NCBI RefSeq assembly: GCF_014229965.1
Contig: NZ_JABGBW010000003.1
Location: forward strand, 62,001 to 126,000
Origin: Peptostreptococcus canis
GTDB taxonomy: Bacteria > Bacillota > Clostridia > Peptostreptococcales > Peptostreptococcaceae
Direction: 5' to 3'
DNA length: 64,000 nt
Within the stretch, counting starts at the first letter, position 1. Every line of letters begins with the position of its first letter. The notes beneath the pieces were generated by a model, which ran no database searches, was not told the origin of the DNA, and worked only from the letters and a program-made list of their open reading frames with translations. Position numbers and translations under genes: made by a program. Of the stretch, positions 33,227 through 41,542 are shown in pieces.

Positions 33227-33691
33227 TTATCTAATTTCATTTATTAGGTTGATCATTTCTATTGCTCCTACAGCTACATCAAATCCCTTATTTCCGGCTT
33301 TAGTACCAGCTCTTTCAATAGCCTGTTCTATATTTTCAGTTGTAACTACTCCAAACATAACAGGTATTTCGCTATCTAGTGAAATATGTGCAATTCCTTT
33401 TGATACTTCACTACAAACATAATCATAATGGGAAGTGTTTCCTCTAATTACAGCTCCTAAACATATCACTGCATCATACTTTCCTGATTTTGCCATTTTA
33501 GATGCAATTAAAGGAATTTCAAATGCACCCGGAACCCAGGCAACATCTATATTATCCTCATCAACATTGTGTCTTGTCAATGCATCGACTGCTCCCGATA
33601 ATAATTTAGACGTTATAAATTCATTGAAACGTCCGGCAACTATTCCTATTTTTACTCCATCTGCTACTAATCTACCTTCAAAAACATTCAT
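33227..33691 (-). CDS. ribH: 6,7-dimethyl-8-ribityllumazine synthase
   Basis: This 154-residue protein condenses 5-amino-6-ribitylaminouracil with 3,4-dihydroxybutanone phosphate, the penultimate riboflavin step. It has VAGRFNEFI near the N-terminus, [33 protein letters not shown] with the catalytic histidine, and [25 protein letters not shown]. Length is typical, and it should form pentamers or icosahedral shells. It is the last gene of the rib operon. AAGGGGG precedes the ATG. Confidence 0.97.
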
Positions 33692-33757
33692 TTTTTTACC
33701 CCCTTATTTTATATAATCTATTATTTAAGTTGTAATATAATTTTATATTTATTAATG

Positions 33758-34966
33758 CTATATACTAGATAGGTCAAGAATATGTCCCATTTTATTTTTC
33801 TTAGCTTCAAGATACTTGAAATCATGCTTATTAGCTTGAACTTGAATTGGCAATCTTTCAACTATTTCCATTCCAAAATCGCTTAACTGATATACTTTAT
33901 CCGGATTATTAGTCAATAGTCTAAGAGTTTTTGCTCCTAAATCCTTTAATATTTGAGCTCCTACAAAATAATCTCTTAAATCTGCGTCAAATCCTAGGGC
34001 TAAATTTGCCTCCATCGTGTCCATTCCTTGCTCTTGAAGTACATATGCCTTTAATTTATTAATCAGACCTATACCTCTTCCTTCCTGTCTCATATATAGA
34101 AGTATACCTCTTCCTTCTGAATCGATTTGCTTCATGGCCGATGCCAATTGATCTCCGCAATCGCATCTCATAGAACCAAAAACATCTCCTGTAAGACACT
34201 CTGAATGCACTCTACAAAGAACATTTTTCCCATCGCCAATATCCCCCTTTACAAGAGCTATATGATGTTCCCCGTTAATTTTATTTACATATCCATATGC
34301 CTTAAATTCGCCGTATTTTGTAGGTAAGTTTGCTATTACTGCTCTTTCCACCAGTTTTTCATTCTTTTTTCTGTAATTTTGTAATTCCTTAATAGTAGTG
34401 AATTTTATATCGAACTTTTCCGCAAGTTCAATCAATTCACTTTTTCTCATCATTGTTCCGTCTTCTTTCATTATTTCACAACACAATCCAACTTCTTTCA
34501 GCCCTGCTATTCTAAGTAAATCTACTGTGGCTTCTGTATGACCATTTCTTTCTAAGACTCCATTTTTTTTGGCTGTAAGTGGAAACATATGACCAGGCCT
34601 TCTAAAATCACTTGGTTTTATGTCTTCTCTAATACATTCCCTTGCAGTGAATCCTCTCTCAACTGCCGAAATACCTGTGGTTGTATCTATATGGTCAATT
34701 GAAACAGTAAAAGCCGTTTCATGATTATCAGTGTTAGTAGTAACCATTTGAGGTAAGTCTAGCTTTCTGGCATATTCTATACTCATAGGCATACATATTA
34801 AACCCCTTCCATGAACTGCCATAAAGTTTACATTTTCAGTAGTTGCAAATTCGGCCGCACAAATAAAATCACCCTCATTTTCTCTATCTTCATCATCTGT
34901 CACAAGTATTATTTTACCTTTACGTAAATCCTCTACTGCTTCCTCAATTGTACTAAATTTAAACAT
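33758..34966 (-). CDS. ribBA: Bifunctional 3,4-DHBP synthase / GTP cyclohydrolase II
   Basis: A 402-residue fusion feeding both branches of riboflavin synthesis. Residues about 1-200 are 3,4-dihydroxy-2-butanone 4-phosphate synthase ([39 protein letters not shown]). Residues about 205-400 are GTP cyclohydrolase II, with the zinc cysteines in [21 protein letters not shown] and [10 protein letters not shown], then [17 protein letters not shown] precedes the ATG. It is third in the operon ribD-ribE-ribBA-ribH, the normal order in Firmicutes. Confidence 0.97.
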
Positions 34967-35002
34967 AATAAATACCTCCTTAAACCAATTTAACTGTTTT
35001 TT

Positions 35003-35659
35003 TTATATAATCCCCTTACTTAAAAGGAAATCTAAGGTTATTTTTTCTTTTTCTTCACTTTCATCGTTATTATTAAATGCAAGCATTCTCTCAACATACT
35101 TTCCGATACAGTCATTTTCTAAGTTTACTACATCGCCTATTTTTTTATCCCCTAATATTGTATTAGATAAAGTATGTGGAATTATAGACACACTAAAATC
35201 TTTATCATTTACATTTGCCACTGTCAAGCTTATTCCATCTATAGCTATTGAACCTTTTTCTATTATGTATTTTAATATTTTTGATTTCGTTTCTATCGTA
35301 TACCAAACTGCGTTATCATCTGTTTTTATGCCTGATATCCTGCCTATTCCATCAATATGACCGGATACGATATGACCACCAAATCTTCCATTTATACTCA
35401 TCGCTCTTTCAAGATTTACTCTTGAACCGGAATATAATTTACCAAGTGATGATCTATCTAAAGTTTCATGCATAACATCTACACTAAATTGATTTTTATC
35501 ATAATCTGTGACAGTAAGACAAACACCGTTTACTGCTATACTATCTCCCAAGTTGACATCTTCTAAAATTTCATTCGCTGATATCGTTAATATAGCAGAC
35601 TTGGCACCTTTTTGTATCCTTTTTATCTTACCTATTTCTTCTACTATTCCTGTAAACAT
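35003..35659 (-). CDS. ribE: Riboflavin synthase alpha subunit
   Basis: A 218-residue enzyme that dismutates two molecules of 6,7-dimethyl-8-ribityllumazine to riboflavin. It starts with the invariant MFTGIVEEIG and contains two lumazine-binding repeats. The first holds GDSIAVNGVCLTV and GGHIVSGHIDG; the second holds KGSIAIDGISLTV and PHTLSNTIL. The start overlaps ribD by 16 bases, so translation is coupled. AAGGTGAGA precedes the ATG. Confidence 0.97.
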   Translation of the reverse strand: MFTGIVEEIGKIKRIQKGAKSAILTISANEILEDVNLGDSIAVNGVCLTVTDYDKNQFSVDVMHETLDRSSLGKLYSGSRVNLERAMSINGRFGGHIVSGHIDGIGRISGIKTDDNAVWYTIETKSKILKYIIEKGSIAIDGISLTVANVNDKDFSVSIIPHTLSNTILGDKKIGDVVNLENDCIGKYVERMLAFNNNDESEEKEKITLDFLLSKGII

Positions 35660-36750
35660 TTTTTCATCTCACCTTCAATTAAAAAATCTTCATCAAAATT
35701 ACGTATTCTAACATTTACTAATTTAATAGATTCAGAAGGTTCCAATATTCCTGCTCCGGAAATGGGAGTTGGAGAATTTTCGCCTGCAAAAATTTTAGGA
35801 GAAATATATGCCTGTACTTTATTTACAATCCCGGAATTTAGTGCAGACCAATTTAACTGCGAACCTCCTTCTAACAAAATGCTGTCTATTTCCATACTAC
35901 CTAATGCATTCATTAGCCAATTCAAATCTATCTTTTTTTCTATACTATTATCCAGTAATATTTCACAGCCCTTTTTTTTAAGAATTTCTATTTTTTTATT
36001 TTCCCTGCACTTCGTTACAATAATTGTCCTATTTCTTTTAGCCGTTTTAACTATTTTGGAATTTTCACTTATTCTTAAGTGGCTATCGCATATTATTCTT
36101 ATCGGATTTCTACCACCGTCTATTCTACAGTCGAGCATGGGATCATCCTTCATTACCGTACCAATTCCAACCATTATAGCACTGTATTTATTTCGATCTA
36201 AATGAACGTTATATCTGGATTTCTCATTAGTTATCCATTTTGATTTACCGGAAGAAGTGGCTATTTTACCATCAATAGTCATAGCATATTTCATCACAAC
36301 ATAAGGTGTCTTATTTTTTATAAAGTGAAAAAAAACGTCATTTAATTCATCACATTCATCTTTTAAAAAATTATTAACTACATCTATACCTTTTTCCTTT
36401 AAAATCTCAAAACCTCTTCCCATCACCAGTGGATTTGGATCATTTGAACCTACCACTACTTTTTTTATACCACTTTCGATAATAGCATCAGTACAAGGAG
36501 GATTTTTACCATGATGACAACACGGTTCTAAGGTAACATACATAGTTGCTCCATTCGGATCTTCAATACATCTGTTCAAGGCATCCCTTTCTGCATGTAA
36601 TTGTCCATAGCCTCTATGATATCCTTTAGATATTATTTCACCTTTCTTTACTATCACTGCACCTACAAGTGGATTTGGATTTACTTTTCCCTCACCTTTT
36701 TTTGCCAATTTAATAGCTATTCTCATATATTTGCTATCTATACTATTCAA
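35644..36750 (-). CDS. ribD: Bifunctional pyrimidine deaminase/reductase RibD
   Basis: A 368-residue protein carrying out deamination and side-chain reduction in riboflavin synthesis. The N-terminal deaminase has the zinc site HAERDAL and CCHHGKNPPCTDAI. The C-terminal reductase (TPYVVMKYAMTIDGKIATSSGKSKWIT, LLEGGSQLNWSAL) resembles dihydrofolate reductase. I prefer the TTG start at 36750, because AGGAGG lies seven bases before it; the ATG at 36756 is only one base from that site. It is the first gene of the rib operon, 217 bases downstream of the FMN riboswitch aptamer. Confidence 0.95.
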   Translation of the reverse strand: MNSIDSKYMRIAIKLAKKGEGKVNPNPLVGAVIVKKGEIISKGYHRGYGQLHAERDALNRCIEDPNGATMYVTLEPCCHHGKNPPCTDAIIESGIKKVVVGSNDPNPLVMGRGFEILKEKGIDVVNNFLKDECDELNDVFFHFIKNKTPYVVMKYAMTIDGKIATSSGKSKWITNEKSRYNVHLDRNKYSAIMVGIGTVMKDDPMLDCRIDGGRNPIRIICDSHLRISENSKIVKTAKRNRTIIVTKCRENKKIEILKKKGCEILLDNSIEKKIDLNWLMNALGSMEIDSILLEGGSQLNWSALNSGIVNKVQAYISPKIFAGENSPTPISGAGILEPSESIKLVNVRIRNFDEDFLIEGEMKKCLQE

Positions 36751-36772
36751 TATCATCCCTCCTGATTTTTCA

Positions 36773-36938: not shown

Positions 36939-36966
36939 AAAATTCACAATACACATAATGATTTTT

Positions 36967-37070
36967 CTTCTCTCATCCAGACTATACTGTCGGCTTTGGA
37001 ATCTCACCAAATCATGCCATAAAGGCTCGCGGGCTATACCGCCGGTAGGGAATCACACCCTGCCCTGAAG
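36967..37070 (-). ncRNA. FMN riboswitch (RFN element)
   Basis: On the minus strand the leader reads CTTCAGGGCAGGGTG..., then ACCGGCGGTATAGCCCGCGAGCC, GATTTGGTGAGATTCC, GCCGACAGTATAGTCTGGATG and AGAGAAG. These are the conserved blocks of the six-helix FMN aptamer, in the correct order. When FMN binds, transcription of the riboflavin genes is stopped at the downstream terminator. The aptamer spans about 104 bases and lies 22 bases after the predicted transcription start. Confidence 0.96.
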
Positions 37071-37098
37071 AATTCTAATTATTTATTTAACTAACTAA

Positions 37099-37157: not shown

Positions 37158-37424
37158 TTAAACTTCTTCTGTAGAAACCATTGTTATTCCAGTTAAATCT
37201 TTTTCTGCTATAATATCTTCAATTACCTCTTTAGTTTCCATTAATTTTTCTAGAGACATTGAATAATAATCAGTTCCCTTATCACTTTCTATATTAAACC
37301 CATGATTATTTAAAAATGCGTTCACCGCTTCCTCATTTTGTTTATAAATTAGGTATCCAGCTGCACAAACACCAACACCTATAGCAATTCCTTTTACTAA
37401 TCCTGCCCTATTTCTCATCATCAT
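37158..37424 (-). CDS. Small membrane-anchored protein at the end of the Fez-like cluster
   Basis: An 88-residue protein with one N-terminal membrane segment (KGIAIGVGVCAAGYLIYK) preceded by basic residues (MMMRNRAGLVK), then an acidic soluble tail (SLEKLMETKEVIEDIIAE). No family recognised. It resembles short YtxH-like membrane anchors in layout only. AGGAGG precedes the ATG. It follows the 257-residue HMA-like gene by 68 bases on the same strand, so it may be the last member of the putative ferrosome cluster. That link is positional and unproven. Confidence 0.65.
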   Translation of the reverse strand: MMMRNRAGLVKGIAIGVGVCAAGYLIYKQNEEAVNAFLNNHGFNIESDKGTDYYSMSLEKLMETKEVIEDIIAEKDLTGITMVSTEEV

Positions 37425-37492
37425 TTTATTTACCTCCTAAATTTCATTATTATCATTTATTACAATCAATTAATTTTTTATTTTCAATTGAT

Positions 37493-38266
37493 TTATCTCA
37501 AAAAACTTCTCCTTACACTTACATTTTGATACACATCCAAGCATGAACCTAAAAATTGGTTGAAAAAAAATGTTCTATTATTTTCCTCTACTACTTTGAC
37601 TTCATCTCCTCTTATGACGGTACCTATCATTATGGATTGGTTATTCCTGGTTAATATATGTCTTCCAAATGTAATACCCCAAGCAATTGCTGGAGAATAT
37701 AGGCCTGCTGGTGTTCCGTCATTTTTAACTACTGTCCCACTGTTAATTGAGTTAAATAAATACATTATTGACATTACTTCCGGATCGAATGCTCCATTTT
37801 CATTAAGCTCATTATATCCATGTTCAAATATAGCACCTATAGTGGAACCAACAGCACACCATCGTATAAAATTCTTGTATCTCATTGCATTTCCGCCAAT
37901 TCCCAAATAATGCGAACTCAAATCCAAAACAATGAAACCAAGTGATAATATTGAACTATATCCAATACTATTCTTTTTTGACATTCTAAAATTAACCTTC
38001 ATATTATTAATTCTTATATCCTTTGAATATATACCACAGAAATTCAATATAAGCTTCTTTAAGTCGATATTTTCCGCATCATATTCTAATAGAAAATTAT
38101 GAGTTATTTCATTGAAACTCCCCTTAATAATCATTCCTTCTCTTTTCAAAGACTTTAGTAAATCAATCGGATTGTTTGGATTTTTTCTTACTCTTAATCT
38201 AAGCCTTCCCGATATTGAAAAAACAATATCTATATTCACATAATTTCTACAATAACACTTTTCCAT
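37493..38266 (-). CDS. HMA-like (GRxR-type) membrane protein of the putative ferrosome locus
   Basis: A 257-residue protein. Its N-terminal half has an HMA-like ferredoxin fold without the metal-binding CxxC: ISGRLRLRVRKNP at about 19-31, in the place where the motif occurs in the neighbouring proteins. The C-terminal half has hydrophobic helices (YSSILSLGFIVLDLSSHYL and FIRWCAVGSTIGAIFEHGY) and a region I do not recognise. It starts one base past the stop of the P1B ATPase gene, using AAAGGAG within that gene, so the two are co-translated. A role beside the ATPase in iron storage-organelle formation is inferred from context. Confidence 0.75.
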   Translation of the reverse strand: MEKCYCRNYVNIDIVFSISGRLRLRVRKNPNNPIDLLKSLKREGMIIKGSFNEITHNFLLEYDAENIDLKKLILNFCGIYSKDIRINNMKVNFRMSKKNSIGYSSILSLGFIVLDLSSHYLGIGGNAMRYKNFIRWCAVGSTIGAIFEHGYNELNENGAFDPEVMSIMYLFNSINSGTVVKNDGTPAGLYSPAIAWGITFGRHILTRNNQSIMIGTVIRGDEVKVVEENNRTFFFNQFLGSCLDVYQNVSVRRSFLR

Positions 38267-38267
38267 A

Positions 38268-40478
38268 TTAATTTACTCCTTTCAGAGATTTGTTGAATAA
38301 CAACCTGCAAGAGTTTCCAATCACGAAAATTGTACTCATATTATGCATTACCGCACTCCAAAACACAGAAATATTACTTGTTGCTCCCAATATCAGCCCT
38401 ACAGTGTTTATTCCTATAACGAGTGCAAAATTCTGCTTAACTATATCCATTGTCATTCCGGATAATTCCATAACTTTAGGAATCATTAGCGGATTATCTG
38501 AATTTATTACTATATCAGATGTCTCAATTGCAACATCAGTAGATTTACTTCCCAGTGAGATTCCTACATTCGCATAAGATAAAGCCGGTGCATCATTTAT
38601 ACCATCACCAACCATTATTACGCTAGTACCTTCAGATTTCATTTTTAATATTTGATCCGCCTTATCTTCAGGTAATAACTCTGCTCTAAAACTATCTGCA
38701 TTAACCTTGTTGGAAACTTCTAGTGCTTGCTTTTTCATATCACCAGTAAGTATCGTAACTTCATTTATACCATTCGATCTCATCATGTTGATAGCTCTTT
38801 TTATATTTTTTCTTGGCTTATCATAAGCTCCTAATACACCGATGAAATCTTCACCATATGATACAAAGATAGGCGTTGCACCTTCTGCAAATTCAATTGC
38901 TCCCCTATCCGGTTCAATTCCATTTTCCTGCATAAATTTTAGATTACCAACTCTGACTGTTTTTCCATCTACTTCCGTATAAGTTCCCCTTCCAACTGCA
39001 GTCTCAATAGTTCCATGCTTAGGTATTTTTATCCCTAGCAATTTACCATATTCTAATACGCAATAAGATAGGGGATGAGAAGAAGATTCTTCTGCAGAAC
39101 AAGCATACTCTACAAGCTGTTTTTCTGTATAATCTCCATTTGCAAGGTAGATATCTTTTATTCTTGGTTTTCCCTCAGTTATTGTACCTGTCTTATCGAG
39201 TACAATAGTATCTGTCAAAGTAAGTTGTTCTATAAATGCACCACCTTTAATTAACACACCATTTTTTACAGACGTATTAATCGATGCAGAAAACGCAGTT
39301 GCAGTCGATAGTTTTATACCACAAGAATAGTCTATTACCAACATATTTAATGCTTTTGTACTACTCTTGGTAACACCATATACAACGGCACTTAGCAATA
39401 AATTAAGCGGTACCAAATAGTTTGAAAATTTGTCTGCATATTTTTGAATTGGTGCCTGTTGAGTAGCACTATTTTCCACCAAATTTATTATTCTTGAAAT
39501 AACAGTATCATCGCCAACTTTTTCAGCTTCTACAGTTATTGTTCCGTTTTTTATCAGTCCTCCTGCAAATACTTTATCTCCGGTTTTTTTAATAACCGGC
39601 ATATATTCGCCTGAAACAGAACTCAAATCCACAATCGCTTCACCATCGACTACTTCGCCGTCCACGCATATTTTTTCACCTGTATGAATTACGACATTAT
39701 CACCTTTTTTCAATTTATCAACACTGCATTTCTCTATACTGCCATCTTCATTTATTTTCCATGTAATATCTTGTTCCAAACTCAAAAGATTTTTTATGGA
39801 ACTTCTTGTTTTTTCTACGGTATACGCAGTCATAAATTCGGCTATATCCGAAAGCGCAATTATAGTAAGCGCTGAAATGCTATTTCCTAATAGTAAACTT
39901 GCCACAATTGACGTAACCGTTAAAAAATCAGCATTTGGTCTTTTTGTTTCAACCAATCCCTCCCATGAAGTTTTTAAAAGTGGGGAAGTAAGTGCTAAGC
40001 TCGTCAAAGCGGGTATAGTGGTGAATCTATCATAGATAGGTCTATTCACTACAGGAAAATTCATTCCACCAATAATTTTTGTACCAAGTATCACTACTCC
40101 ATTTAAAATCAACCTTCCCATCAATTTTTTTGAAGAACTGTTTTCAGCACTATACTTGGCATTTGACTCACTACTTTTTTTATCTAAATATCCTTTATAG
40201 ATATCCAGCGAATACTTTTCTACTATAAAATCAAGAACTTCGAGCAAATCTGATACACTATCAAAAGATTCACTCTCATTATATTTAATTAAAATAGTTT
40301 CTGTTGCAGAATTAATCTGCACAAAGTTTATATAATGAATATCATATATTTCATTCATAAGATCTTCATATTTGTCAGAAATATATTTCAATCCATTGTA
40401 TTTGATACGGCATCTTCCACTAATATTAGAAATCATCTTTCCTTTCAGCGAAAAAACCTTATTACCTAACTGTATCAA
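38268..40478 (-). CDS. P1B-type ATPase with SCG motif, FezB-like
   Basis: A 736-residue P-type ATPase. It has an N-terminal HMA-like domain with ISGRCRIKYNG and no CxxC, the actuator SGE (289-291), a membrane motif VIDYSCGIKLSTATAF (S385-C386-G387), the phosphorylated Asp428 in DKTGT, HP at 468-469 and GDGINDAP in the hinge. Most metal ATPases carry CPC, CPH, SPC or TPC at the membrane site; SC followed by a small residue marks the P1B-6 group. FezB, the ATPase essential for ferrosome (iron organelle) formation in Desulfovibrio and Clostridioides, belongs to this group. The start is TTG, nine bases after AAAGGAG. Iron is the likely cargo, by analogy. Neighbours share its HMA-like domain. Confidence 0.88.
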   Translation of the reverse strand: MIQLGNKVFSLKGKMISNISGRCRIKYNGLKYISDKYEDLMNEIYDIHYINFVQINSATETILIKYNESESFDSVSDLLEVLDFIVEKYSLDIYKGYLDKKSSESNAKYSAENSSSKKLMGRLILNGVVILGTKIIGGMNFPVVNRPIYDRFTTIPALTSLALTSPLLKTSWEGLVETKRPNADFLTVTSIVASLLLGNSISALTIIALSDIAEFMTAYTVEKTRSSIKNLLSLEQDITWKINEDGSIEKCSVDKLKKGDNVVIHTGEKICVDGEVVDGEAIVDLSSVSGEYMPVIKKTGDKVFAGGLIKNGTITVEAEKVGDDTVISRIINLVENSATQQAPIQKYADKFSNYLVPLNLLLSAVVYGVTKSSTKALNMLVIDYSCGIKLSTATAFSASINTSVKNGVLIKGGAFIEQLTLTDTIVLDKTGTITEGKPRIKDIYLANGDYTEKQLVEYACSAEESSSHPLSYCVLEYGKLLGIKIPKHGTIETAVGRGTYTEVDGKTVRVGNLKFMQENGIEPDRGAIEFAEGATPIFVSYGEDFIGVLGAYDKPRKNIKRAINMMRSNGINEVTILTGDMKKQALEVSNKVNADSFRAELLPEDKADQILKMKSEGTSVIMVGDGINDAPALSYANVGISLGSKSTDVAIETSDIVINSDNPLMIPKVMELSGMTMDIVKQNFALVIGINTVGLILGATSNISVFWSAVMHNMSTIFVIGNSCRLLFNKSLKGVN

Positions 40479-40492
40479 AACTTCACTCTCCT

Positions 40493-40882
40493 TTACTTAA
40501 TACTATTAATCTTCATATAGTTTTCAAGTAAACTAAAAAGAATATTTTTTATTTCATCCTCCGTTTTCCCTTCCAAGCTGTTAATTAAGCTTTCATTATC
40601 TAAAGCTAATTTTTTTACAGCATTAAGCCAACTCACAATCATCTTGGAATTTAACTTTCGTTTATCATATTCTATTAATATAGTACCAATAATATTATTG
40701 ATTTTTATATTATTTATTCCATCCAATTTTTTTATAGCTTCTATTCCATAATCTTGATATTGTATAGCTTCTGGCGGTATCTTTTTGTGATTATTTACTT
40801 TTAATCTTAGTCTCCCCGGTAAATCTGAAAGTATTTCAAACCTGAAAAGCATATTAATTAAAGCTGTTTTAAACTTAATCAT
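40493..40882 (-). CDS. HMA-like (GRxR-type) small protein
   Basis: A 129-residue soluble protein that is mostly one HMA-like domain: FEILSDLPGRLRLKVNN, then LDGINNIKINNIIGTILIEYD. It lacks CxxC and has no membrane segment. The LPGRLRL motif matches the equivalents in the two larger HMA-like proteins and in the ATPase. It ends 14 bases before the ATPase gene. The spacing and shared domain suggest it acts with the ATPase, perhaps as a docking or scaffold partner. AAGGATG precedes the ATG. Confidence 0.72.
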   Translation of the reverse strand: MIKFKTALINMLFRFEILSDLPGRLRLKVNNHKKIPPEAIQYQDYGIEAIKKLDGINNIKINNIIGTILIEYDKRKLNSKMIVSWLNAVKKLALDNESLINSLEGKTEDEIKNILFSLLENYMKINSIK

Positions 40883-40894
40883 ATTCTATCATCC

Positions 40895-41485
40895 TTACAT
40901 AAATAATGTAGTAGTCCACCATAAAAACGTGATATAGTCAGGAGTTCTCCTTGCGCCCATCTTTTTTACATCGTAAACAGCGGCTCCTAAAAATAATAAT
41001 GCCATTAATGATTTAATATTTAAAATTCCTCCAGTAAAATCATATACTCCATTATTAATTGCATTTTTAAAAGTTCCTACTTTTTTTTCAATTTCAGAGG
41101 TTCTTCCTTCATCTAACTTTTCATCTAAAGAAAGTAATTTCATTATTACCCCCTCCAGTGTTTGAGCATCTAGGTTATCGGAATCATATTCCACTAATAC
41201 ACTACCTGTGACTAAATTCACTTCACATTTTTTTATTACAGAAATCTTTTTTACCTGAGATGTCAAAAGCTCAGCTAACTCCAAATTTGATTTCAAAACA
41301 GGAACAAAAAATCTTATTCTTCCGTTTACAGAACTTCTAACTTCCAATATGTTCTTAAAAGATGGAAGTTCAAGAGTATTTAATTTATTTTTAGAATATA
41401 ACCCTAATGAACCTTTTTTGTTTTTACCTAAAATACTAGCTAATAAAAATAAAGTGCAAATATATCCTCTATTACATACTAACAT
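40895..41485 (-). CDS. HMA-like (GRxR-type) membrane protein, first gene of the Fez-like cluster
   Basis: A 196-residue protein with a short hydrophobic N-terminus (CTLFLLASIL), an HMA-like domain (ILEVRSSVNGRIRFFVPVL, VNLVTGSVLVEYD) and two C-terminal hydrophobic segments ending TPDYITFLWWTTTLFM. As in its neighbours the usual CxxC is replaced by a GRxR pattern. I start it at the ATG at 41485, eight bases after GGAG; other in-frame starts at 41491 and 41494 are too close to that site. It heads the cluster behind a TATAAT-type promoter. Confidence 0.72.
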   Translation of the reverse strand: MLVCNRGYICTLFLLASILGKNKKGSLGLYSKNKLNTLELPSFKNILEVRSSVNGRIRFFVPVLKSNLELAELLTSQVKKISVIKKCEVNLVTGSVLVEYDSDNLDAQTLEGVIMKLLSLDEKLDEGRTSEIEKKVGTFKNAINNGVYDFTGGILNIKSLMALLFLGAAVYDVKKMGARRTPDYITFLWWTTTLFM

Positions 41486-41514
41486 CAGCATCACTCCATT
41501 CTTTTTTTAATTAT

Positions 41515-41542
41515 ATTATACCACTTTTATTTTCAATTACAA
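41515..41542 (-). promoter_or_regulatory. Probable promoter of the Fez-like cluster, with repeated element
   Basis: On the minus strand TATAAT (41520-41515) lies 16 bases after TTGTAA (41542-41537). The 9-mer ATTTTCAAT (plus strand) occurs at 41529-41537, overlapping the -35, and again at 41567-41575. This is a possible pair of regulator sites. Confidence 0.55.

Follow-up and report, generated by a model that had tools for sequence, protein, structure and literature searches.

The 64-kb stretch of Peptostreptococcus canis DNA analyzed here, which we call the window, carries a tight operon of five nearly abutting minus-strand genes at positions 37158-41494 that appears to encode an iron-handling membrane system. 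From sequence comparisons, this system seems to be built around a P1B-6-type ATPase of the 'SCG' branch, and its most likely product is a ferrosome-like iron store, a reading to which we give a probability of about 0.5. The gene content and order of the operon, the phylogenetic place and motifs of its ATPase, and the iron-linked gene context in relatives are established.

The operon was delineated by reading the open reading frames of the window. Its first gene, g1 (40895-41494), encodes a protein of 199 aa from a GTG start, or 196 aa if the ATG at 41485 is used, with an N-terminal membrane helix, an HMA_2 domain, and two C-terminal hydrophobic helices. It is followed by g2 (40493-40882), which encodes a short HMA_2 protein of 129 aa without CxxC, and by g3 (38268-40478), which encodes the 736-aa ATPase from a TTG start. 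The last two genes are g4 (37493-38266; 257 aa), whose product combines an HMA-like domain with four helices, and g5 (37158-37424; 88 aa), which specifies a small membrane-anchored protein with a glycine-rich helix and then a KE..EDIIAE helix. The initial annotation had recognized a tight minus-strand cluster in which a P1B ATPase with an SCG motif is accompanied by three HMA-like partners lacking CxxC and a small membrane protein, and our analysis confirmed all five reading frames, the motifs, and the HMA homology.

A probable sigma-70 promoter (TTGTAA, a 16-nt spacer, and TATAAT; 41515-41542, minus strand) can be read from the sequence and from comparison within the genus, and it sits within an ATTGAnAAT-rich element that is conserved in Peptostreptococcus. 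The operon is flanked by the AP endonuclease gene nfo and by riboflavin genes under FMN-riboswitch control. These latter genes (ribD-ribE-ribBA-ribH; 33227-36756, minus strand) lie directly downstream, and this neighborhood is kept in most of the Peptostreptococcus species that carry the operon. The FMN riboswitch at 36961-37076 (minus strand; 116.7 bits) is located upstream of the riboflavin genes and belongs to them, and no riboswitch acting on the operon was found, so riboswitch control of the operon was rejected. The 2.06-Mb host genome also encodes CopA-like and ZntA-like pumps at other loci. Among named organisms, the best relatives are Peptostreptococcus species, with P. porci first (87%), followed by P. 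sp. D1, P. sp. MV1, P. faecalis, and P. anaerobius, and the operon is present in six of the nine Peptostreptococcus genomes examined. Because two species that lack it keep nfo and the riboflavin genes close together, with no operon genes or remnants nearby, the operon is an accessory unit in this genus that is gained or lost as a whole.

The HMA_2 model (Pfam PF19991) matches g1 (3e-53, spanning nearly the whole profile), g2 (3.5e-13), g3 (2.6e-7), and g4 (0.0021, which is below the curated cut-off). Comparisons of family profiles yield probabilities of 98.9-99.7% for all HMA-HMA pairs among g1 to g4, with the g2 profile matching those of g1 and the ATPase at 99.6-99.7%. By these comparisons, the four HMA domains are homologous. 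CxxC is essentially absent from the domains of all four families, and a GRxR motif is found in 57 of 60 g1, 46 of 50 g2, 68 of 68 g3, and 41 of 57 g4 family members. Structure prediction, which had been proposed as a check on the HMA-like proteins and was run for g1 and g4, returned HMA-type folds for both (AlphaFold pLDDT of 89 and 83, respectively). In the g1 model, a helix at residues 7-25 precedes a ferredoxin-like HMA fold and helices at 131-150 and 157-176, and a structure search recovered clear structural relatives for the HMA part only. The notion that the C-terminal helices of g1 represent an ATPase fragment was rejected, as profile comparison gave it no support.

The SCG motif of g3 is real (IDYSCGIKLSTATA). 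The protein has an N-terminal HMA_2 domain with the sequence GRCRIK, the TM4 motif IDYSCG, the sequence DKTGT, and an HN motif near its C-terminus (SAVMHNMSTIF). Its TM4 therefore carries D-[YF]-S-C in place of CPC, and the CPC motif typical of CopA and ZntA is absent. The HN motif is present in 65 of 68 g3-family members and in every SCG, SCA, and CtpC-like row of our trees; a conserved HN motif in TM6 is a feature of P1B6 pumps (PMC9374683). In a careful tree of 41 ATPases (IQ-TREE), the SCG branch (support 100/99) and the SCA branch (100/100) are joined at 99/95, with three CtpC-like, DUF1490-associated actinobacterial pumps as their nearest outgroup and with CopA and ZntA outside. A quick tree of 68 rows agrees, with support of 93 for the union of SCG and SCA. 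The SCA branch includes the probable FezB of Clostridioides, which is about 30% identical to g3 and which serves as the FezB reference in the tree in place of the proteins from Rhodopseudomonas palustris, Shewanella putrefaciens, and Desulfovibrio magneticus.

On the basis of this tree position, the D-[YF]-S-C sequence, and the HN motif, we classify g3 as a P1B-6-type ATPase that is sister to the FezB branch and not a member of it. Both sister branches have 99-100% support, and g3 falls outside the clade of characterized FezB. The kinship with FezB proposed by the initial annotation holds to the extent that g3 lies on the P1B-6/FezB side of the tree, away from ZntA, CopA, and CtpC-like pumps; the clustering with those groups that the annotation had named as grounds for refutation is not seen. 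An identity as CtpC/PacL, CopA, or ZntA is ruled out by the tree and the motifs. None of the CopA/ZntA hallmarks (a CxxC-containing N-terminal domain, CPC in TM4, and membership in their clades) is seen in g3, and neither the DUF1490 partner nor the CPC motif of PacL/CtpC platforms is found in the operon.

Six genomes of one Peptostreptococcaceae genus, probably Clostridioides, encode an ATPase of 699-707 aa with an N-terminal HMA_2 domain and the sequence VDFSCALKLS, adjoining a gene for a 131-aa DUF6110 protein. We regard this pair as probably FezB and FezA, given the gene context and genome position. Support for this identity comes from one genome in which the Clostridioides-type SCA ATPase lies near 712 kb, a position that fits C. 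difficile fezAB, which corresponds to CD630_05910-05920 (PMC11651100). Relatives at 38-41% identity occur in Desulfobacterota, several of them beside FeoA and a FezA-like protein. Two Desulfobacterota loci (L189 6126-10258 and L194 2093-6476) carry tandem SCA-type FezB-like ATPases together with an HMA_2 protein and FezA-like proteins. Furthermore, an ATPase lying deep on the SCA side of the quick tree is encoded on a Deinococcus plasmid (L151 2659-5163); it is a long P1B pump with an N-terminal GRVRV HMA-like domain and FASG replacing SCG/CPC, and it is preceded by a small membrane-type protein.

A further SCA group (an Arcobacter plasmid, L150; L192; L193; and the alphaproteobacterial L218) carries small DUF4405-like proteins, as judged from matches at E values of 0.008 and 0.012 in two cases and from reading the sequences of the others. 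These proteins fit FezC, because FezC has been described as a DUF4405-like cytochrome that is a ferrosome component of Desulfovibrio (PMC10979944). No FezC (DUF4405-like) gene is found in the operon of the window or at the Clostridioides locus, and its absence from the latter indicates that FezC is not universal in Fez systems. Thus, the proposal in the initial annotation that the locus is of the fez type is borne out in part. The ATPase is Fez-related and iron genes flank the operon in several relatives, but the ATPase belongs to a separate sister branch and both FezA (DUF6110) and FezC (DUF4405-like) are absent. Because the ATPase branch differs and these two partners are missing, the operon is not fez in the strict sense, and a plain fez locus was rejected. 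It is best classified as a Fez-related variant, which its separate ATPase branch and different partner set distinguish from the probable Clostridioides FezB system.

The partner proteins g4 and g5 are less readily assigned to known families. In a 51-member alignment of g4 homologs, His149 is invariant, Glu163 and His203 are near-invariant, and an FGRH motif is present. The g4 model has helix boundaries at 128-157, 162-176, and 191-206, and it places H149, H203, and E163 near the ends of helices 2, 4, and 3, respectively. Because these ends would face the same side, a two-His-plus-carboxylate site for iron, or else a heme site, is conceivable, if speculative. Profile comparison weakly matches the helices of g4 with the membrane region of the ATPase (49% probability over 52 columns), and the best Foldseek match is to ATP7B (E value of 5e-3) with poor superposition. 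We do not claim that the helices are an ATPase fragment, since both signals are only suggestive.

The g5 protein matches no Pfam or NCBIfam family at threshold and is found in 46 of the 68 loci described below, drawn from the best 80 of 165 relatives. Its layout resembles those of PacL and FezA, with a glycine-rich helix and then a charged helix ending in EDIIAE or EDILAE, but it constitutes a family of its own. Profile similarity to FezA is weak (57%), and g5 has no match to DUF6110, whereas the Clostridioides FezA scores 79.8 bits with that model. Homology of g5 to DUF1490 was rejected, as profile comparison gave no match. A scaffolding role for g5 is nevertheless a reasonable analogy, because PacL1 acts as the scaffold of CtpC efflux platforms and genes for DUF6110 proteins typically accompany those for P1B6 pumps (PMC9374683).

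Two ATPase peptide patterns were used to scan about 85,000 species genomes; of the 165 relatives confirmed in this way, the best 80 were read. Among these 80, there are 68 loci, from about 14 phyla, with a usable ATPase gene, and the order g1-g2-g3-g4-g5 is never broken in any of them. All five genes are present in 34 of the 68; in the remainder, genes were missed at contig ends or by simple gene calling, or are truly lacking. This conservation of gene order is far beyond chance. The best 80 relatives belong to Clostridia and other Firmicutes, Fusobacteriota, Bacteroidota, Desulfobacterota, Spirochaetes, Planctomycetes, Armatimonadetes, Latescibacterota, KSB1, Hydrogenedentota, Riflebacteria, Myxococcota, Chloroflexota, GN15, and Alphaproteobacteria. 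Carriers among oral and gut commensals include Peptostreptococcus, Fusobacterium, Leptotrichia, Intestinibacter, and Christensenella. One SCG-branch pump of Fusobacterium vincentii is carried by a 2.1-Mb replicon that is listed as a plasmid and is probably a chromosome (L147; NZ_CP084075.1). A related five-part cluster resides on Priestia megaterium plasmid pBM400 (L152; 16945-20771), annotated merely as HMA2 domain proteins and a P-type ATPase, and related ATPases with generic annotations occur on many Priestia plasmids. Within Peptostreptococcaceae, the SCG pump is found in 14 of 71 genomes, the SCA pump in 6 (four further matches are the SCG pump itself), and both in none. This mutual exclusion is true but is not evidence, because chance predicts just 1.2 co-occurrences.

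The chief new evidence for a link to iron comes from gene context. Several relatives place the operon next to genes for Fe(II) uptake. In Tepidibacter (L054), the FeoB gene immediately precedes the operon on the same strand; in a Phycisphaerae genome (L077), a FeoA-FeoB pair, likewise on the operon strand, ends 92 bp upstream; and in two other loci (L082 and L035), FeoB lies within about 7 kb. In nine loci, which represent several phyla, the operon is closely preceded by a homologous regulator gene, and the three that were tested are DtxR-type, with Pfam Fe_dep_repress and Fe_dep_repr_C domains confirmed. DtxR-type regulators can respond to manganese. Fur-box matches of at least 15/19 are found upstream of 5 of 37 operons (Firmicutes, Fusobacteria, and Marinifilum), where 0.5 are expected. 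The highest matches are 17/19 in C. acetireducens and a pair of overlapping boxes, 16/19 and 15/19, in Desulfosporosinus hippei. For the window, a Fur box was rejected because no match of at least 15/19 was found anywhere in the 64 kb, and neither a Feo gene nor a DtxR-type regulator was found at its own locus. Because the Feo, DtxR-type, and Fur-box links occur in relatives, with none at the window locus, a role in iron handling is likely for the SCG operon family but unproven for the copy in the window. The FezB-type (SCA) loci show the same Feo association as the SCG relatives. Among Desulfobacterota, SCA-type ATPase genes adjoin FeoA-like genes at L183-L185, L190, and L193, with L190 adjoining both FeoA and FeoB, which independently ties FezB to Fe(II) uptake at the genomic level.

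A mechanism can be proposed in which g3 would transport a divalent metal out of the cytosol and across a membrane, the metal most likely being Fe(II). The HMA_2 domains of g1, g2, and g3, with GRxR replacing CxxC, might serve as docking or relay modules, and g4, with its HMA-like domain, four helices, and His/Glu/His residues, could form a metal or heme site in the membrane. The g5 protein would gather pumps into assemblies, a role that PacL plays for CtpC and that FezA may play for FezB. Upon iron influx after starvation, the metal would then be concentrated in a membrane-bounded, ferrosome-like store. Formation of an organelle by this operon is a plausible prediction. Several points count against the iron-store reading: the window locus has neither a Fur box nor a Feo gene, DtxR-type regulators are able to respond to manganese, FezA and FezC are missing, and the nearest outgroup of the branch pair exports zinc at the plasma membrane.

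The same components might instead form a plasma-membrane platform for Fe(II) efflux without any compartment, like the PacL/CtpC platforms of mycobacteria, although we consider this somewhat unlikely. P1B ATPases normally export, and the DUF1490/CtpC-like branch is the nearest outgroup of the SCG and SCA branches. CtpC and PacL together export zinc at the plasma membrane, and PacL, a small membrane protein, gathers the pump into foci that are not organelles (PMC9374683). The layout of g5 is comparable to that of PacL. However, the characterized member that makes ferrosomes sits in the sister branch rather than in the outgroup, g5 has no DUF1490 profile match, and the ATPase has no CPC. We favor a ferrosome-like store over efflux because the sister branch holds the characterized ferrosome relatives and because some relatives pair the operon with Fe(II) uptake genes. 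Next to such genes, storage of incoming iron would seem to suit better than expulsion.

It is improbable that the operon is merely the six-gene fez operon already described from R. palustris and S. putrefaciens, even though both have multi-gene operons around a P1B-6 ATPase. The fez operon of S. putrefaciens comprises six genes around such a pump. That of R. palustris likewise comprises six genes (RPA2333-2338; PMC12016538). However, the ATPase of the alphaproteobacterial SCA locus (L218) is accompanied by a FezA-like helix protein, a single HMA_2 protein, and a small protein that is DUF4405-like by eye, an arrangement unlike that of the SCG operon. DUF4405-like genes, matching the Desulfovibrio ferrosome component FezC (PMC10979944), are seen beside SCA-type pumps, and, at the threshold applied, only 2 of 385 Alphaproteobacteria yielded an SCG pump. 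Least probable of all is a pump for zinc, cadmium, or manganese resistance or homeostasis that is unrelated to iron. The general NCBIfam model TIGR01512 does label g3 a cadmium-family heavy metal ATPase, CtpC handles zinc, and a version of the operon is present on Priestia megaterium plasmids, where metal-resistance genes are common. Against this, Feo genes, DtxR-type regulators, and Fur boxes are associated with the operon in relatives, g3 lacks the CxxC and CPC ligands that are usual in Zn/Cd and Cu pumps, and it lies outside the ZntA and CopA clades.

With a ferrosome-like store as the preferred reading, it is tempting to speculate further, although the odds run against it, that this conserved five-gene operon of about 14 phyla represents a second, anciently separate, and widespread iron-compartment machinery with its own scaffolds and with a g4 protein possibly derived from the membrane half of the pump. 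Bacteria have few known organelles, and ferrosomes are one of them. Whether ferrosomes also occur in other pathogens or commensals is a question on which a 2025 review urges research (PMC12574912). The operon makes the question of their range testable in many host-associated anaerobes, which carry the same pump superfamily with different partners. Should it make iron stores, there would be at least two machineries for ferrosome-like organelles, and the range of such organelles would be much wider. Should it export iron instead, organelle function would be separated from the pump, which would show which partner genes matter.

Among known systems, the Priestia pBM400 cluster is the deepest member of the SCG branch (100/99) and has the same five-part arrangement of two HMA2 proteins, ATPase, HMA2 protein, and small protein. 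It differs in having ICG rather than SCG, in the reverse size order of its two upstream HMA2 genes, and in a g4 homolog in which the second His (H203) is apparently missing. The mycobacterial CtpC-PacL1 platforms share an HMA-type N-terminus without CxxC, an HN motif, and a small membrane scaffold beside the pump, but they have CPC in TM4, a DUF1490 partner, and an outgroup position in the tree. The C. difficile Fez system is alike in its P1B-6 ATPase with an N-terminal HMA_2 domain, D-F/Y-S-C, and a C-terminal HN motif, and in the small glycine-rich membrane-anchored partner encoded adjacent to it. In contrast, its ATPase has SCA rather than SCG, shares only about 30% identity, and belongs to the separate sister branch; its FezA is a DUF6110 protein with no counterpart here, and its locus is without g1, g2, and g4. 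Finally, the FezC clusters (the Desulfovibrio magneticus type and SCA loci L150, L192, L193, and L218) likewise combine a P1B-6 ATPase with one or more HMA_2 proteins and a small helix protein, and several Desulfobacterota loci have FeoA and FeoB nearby, an iron-gene context like that of the SCG relatives. In these clusters, the pump is accompanied by a DUF4405-like FezC and by a FezA-like protein rich in glycine, whereas the SCG operons have neither and instead carry three HMA_2 partners and g5.
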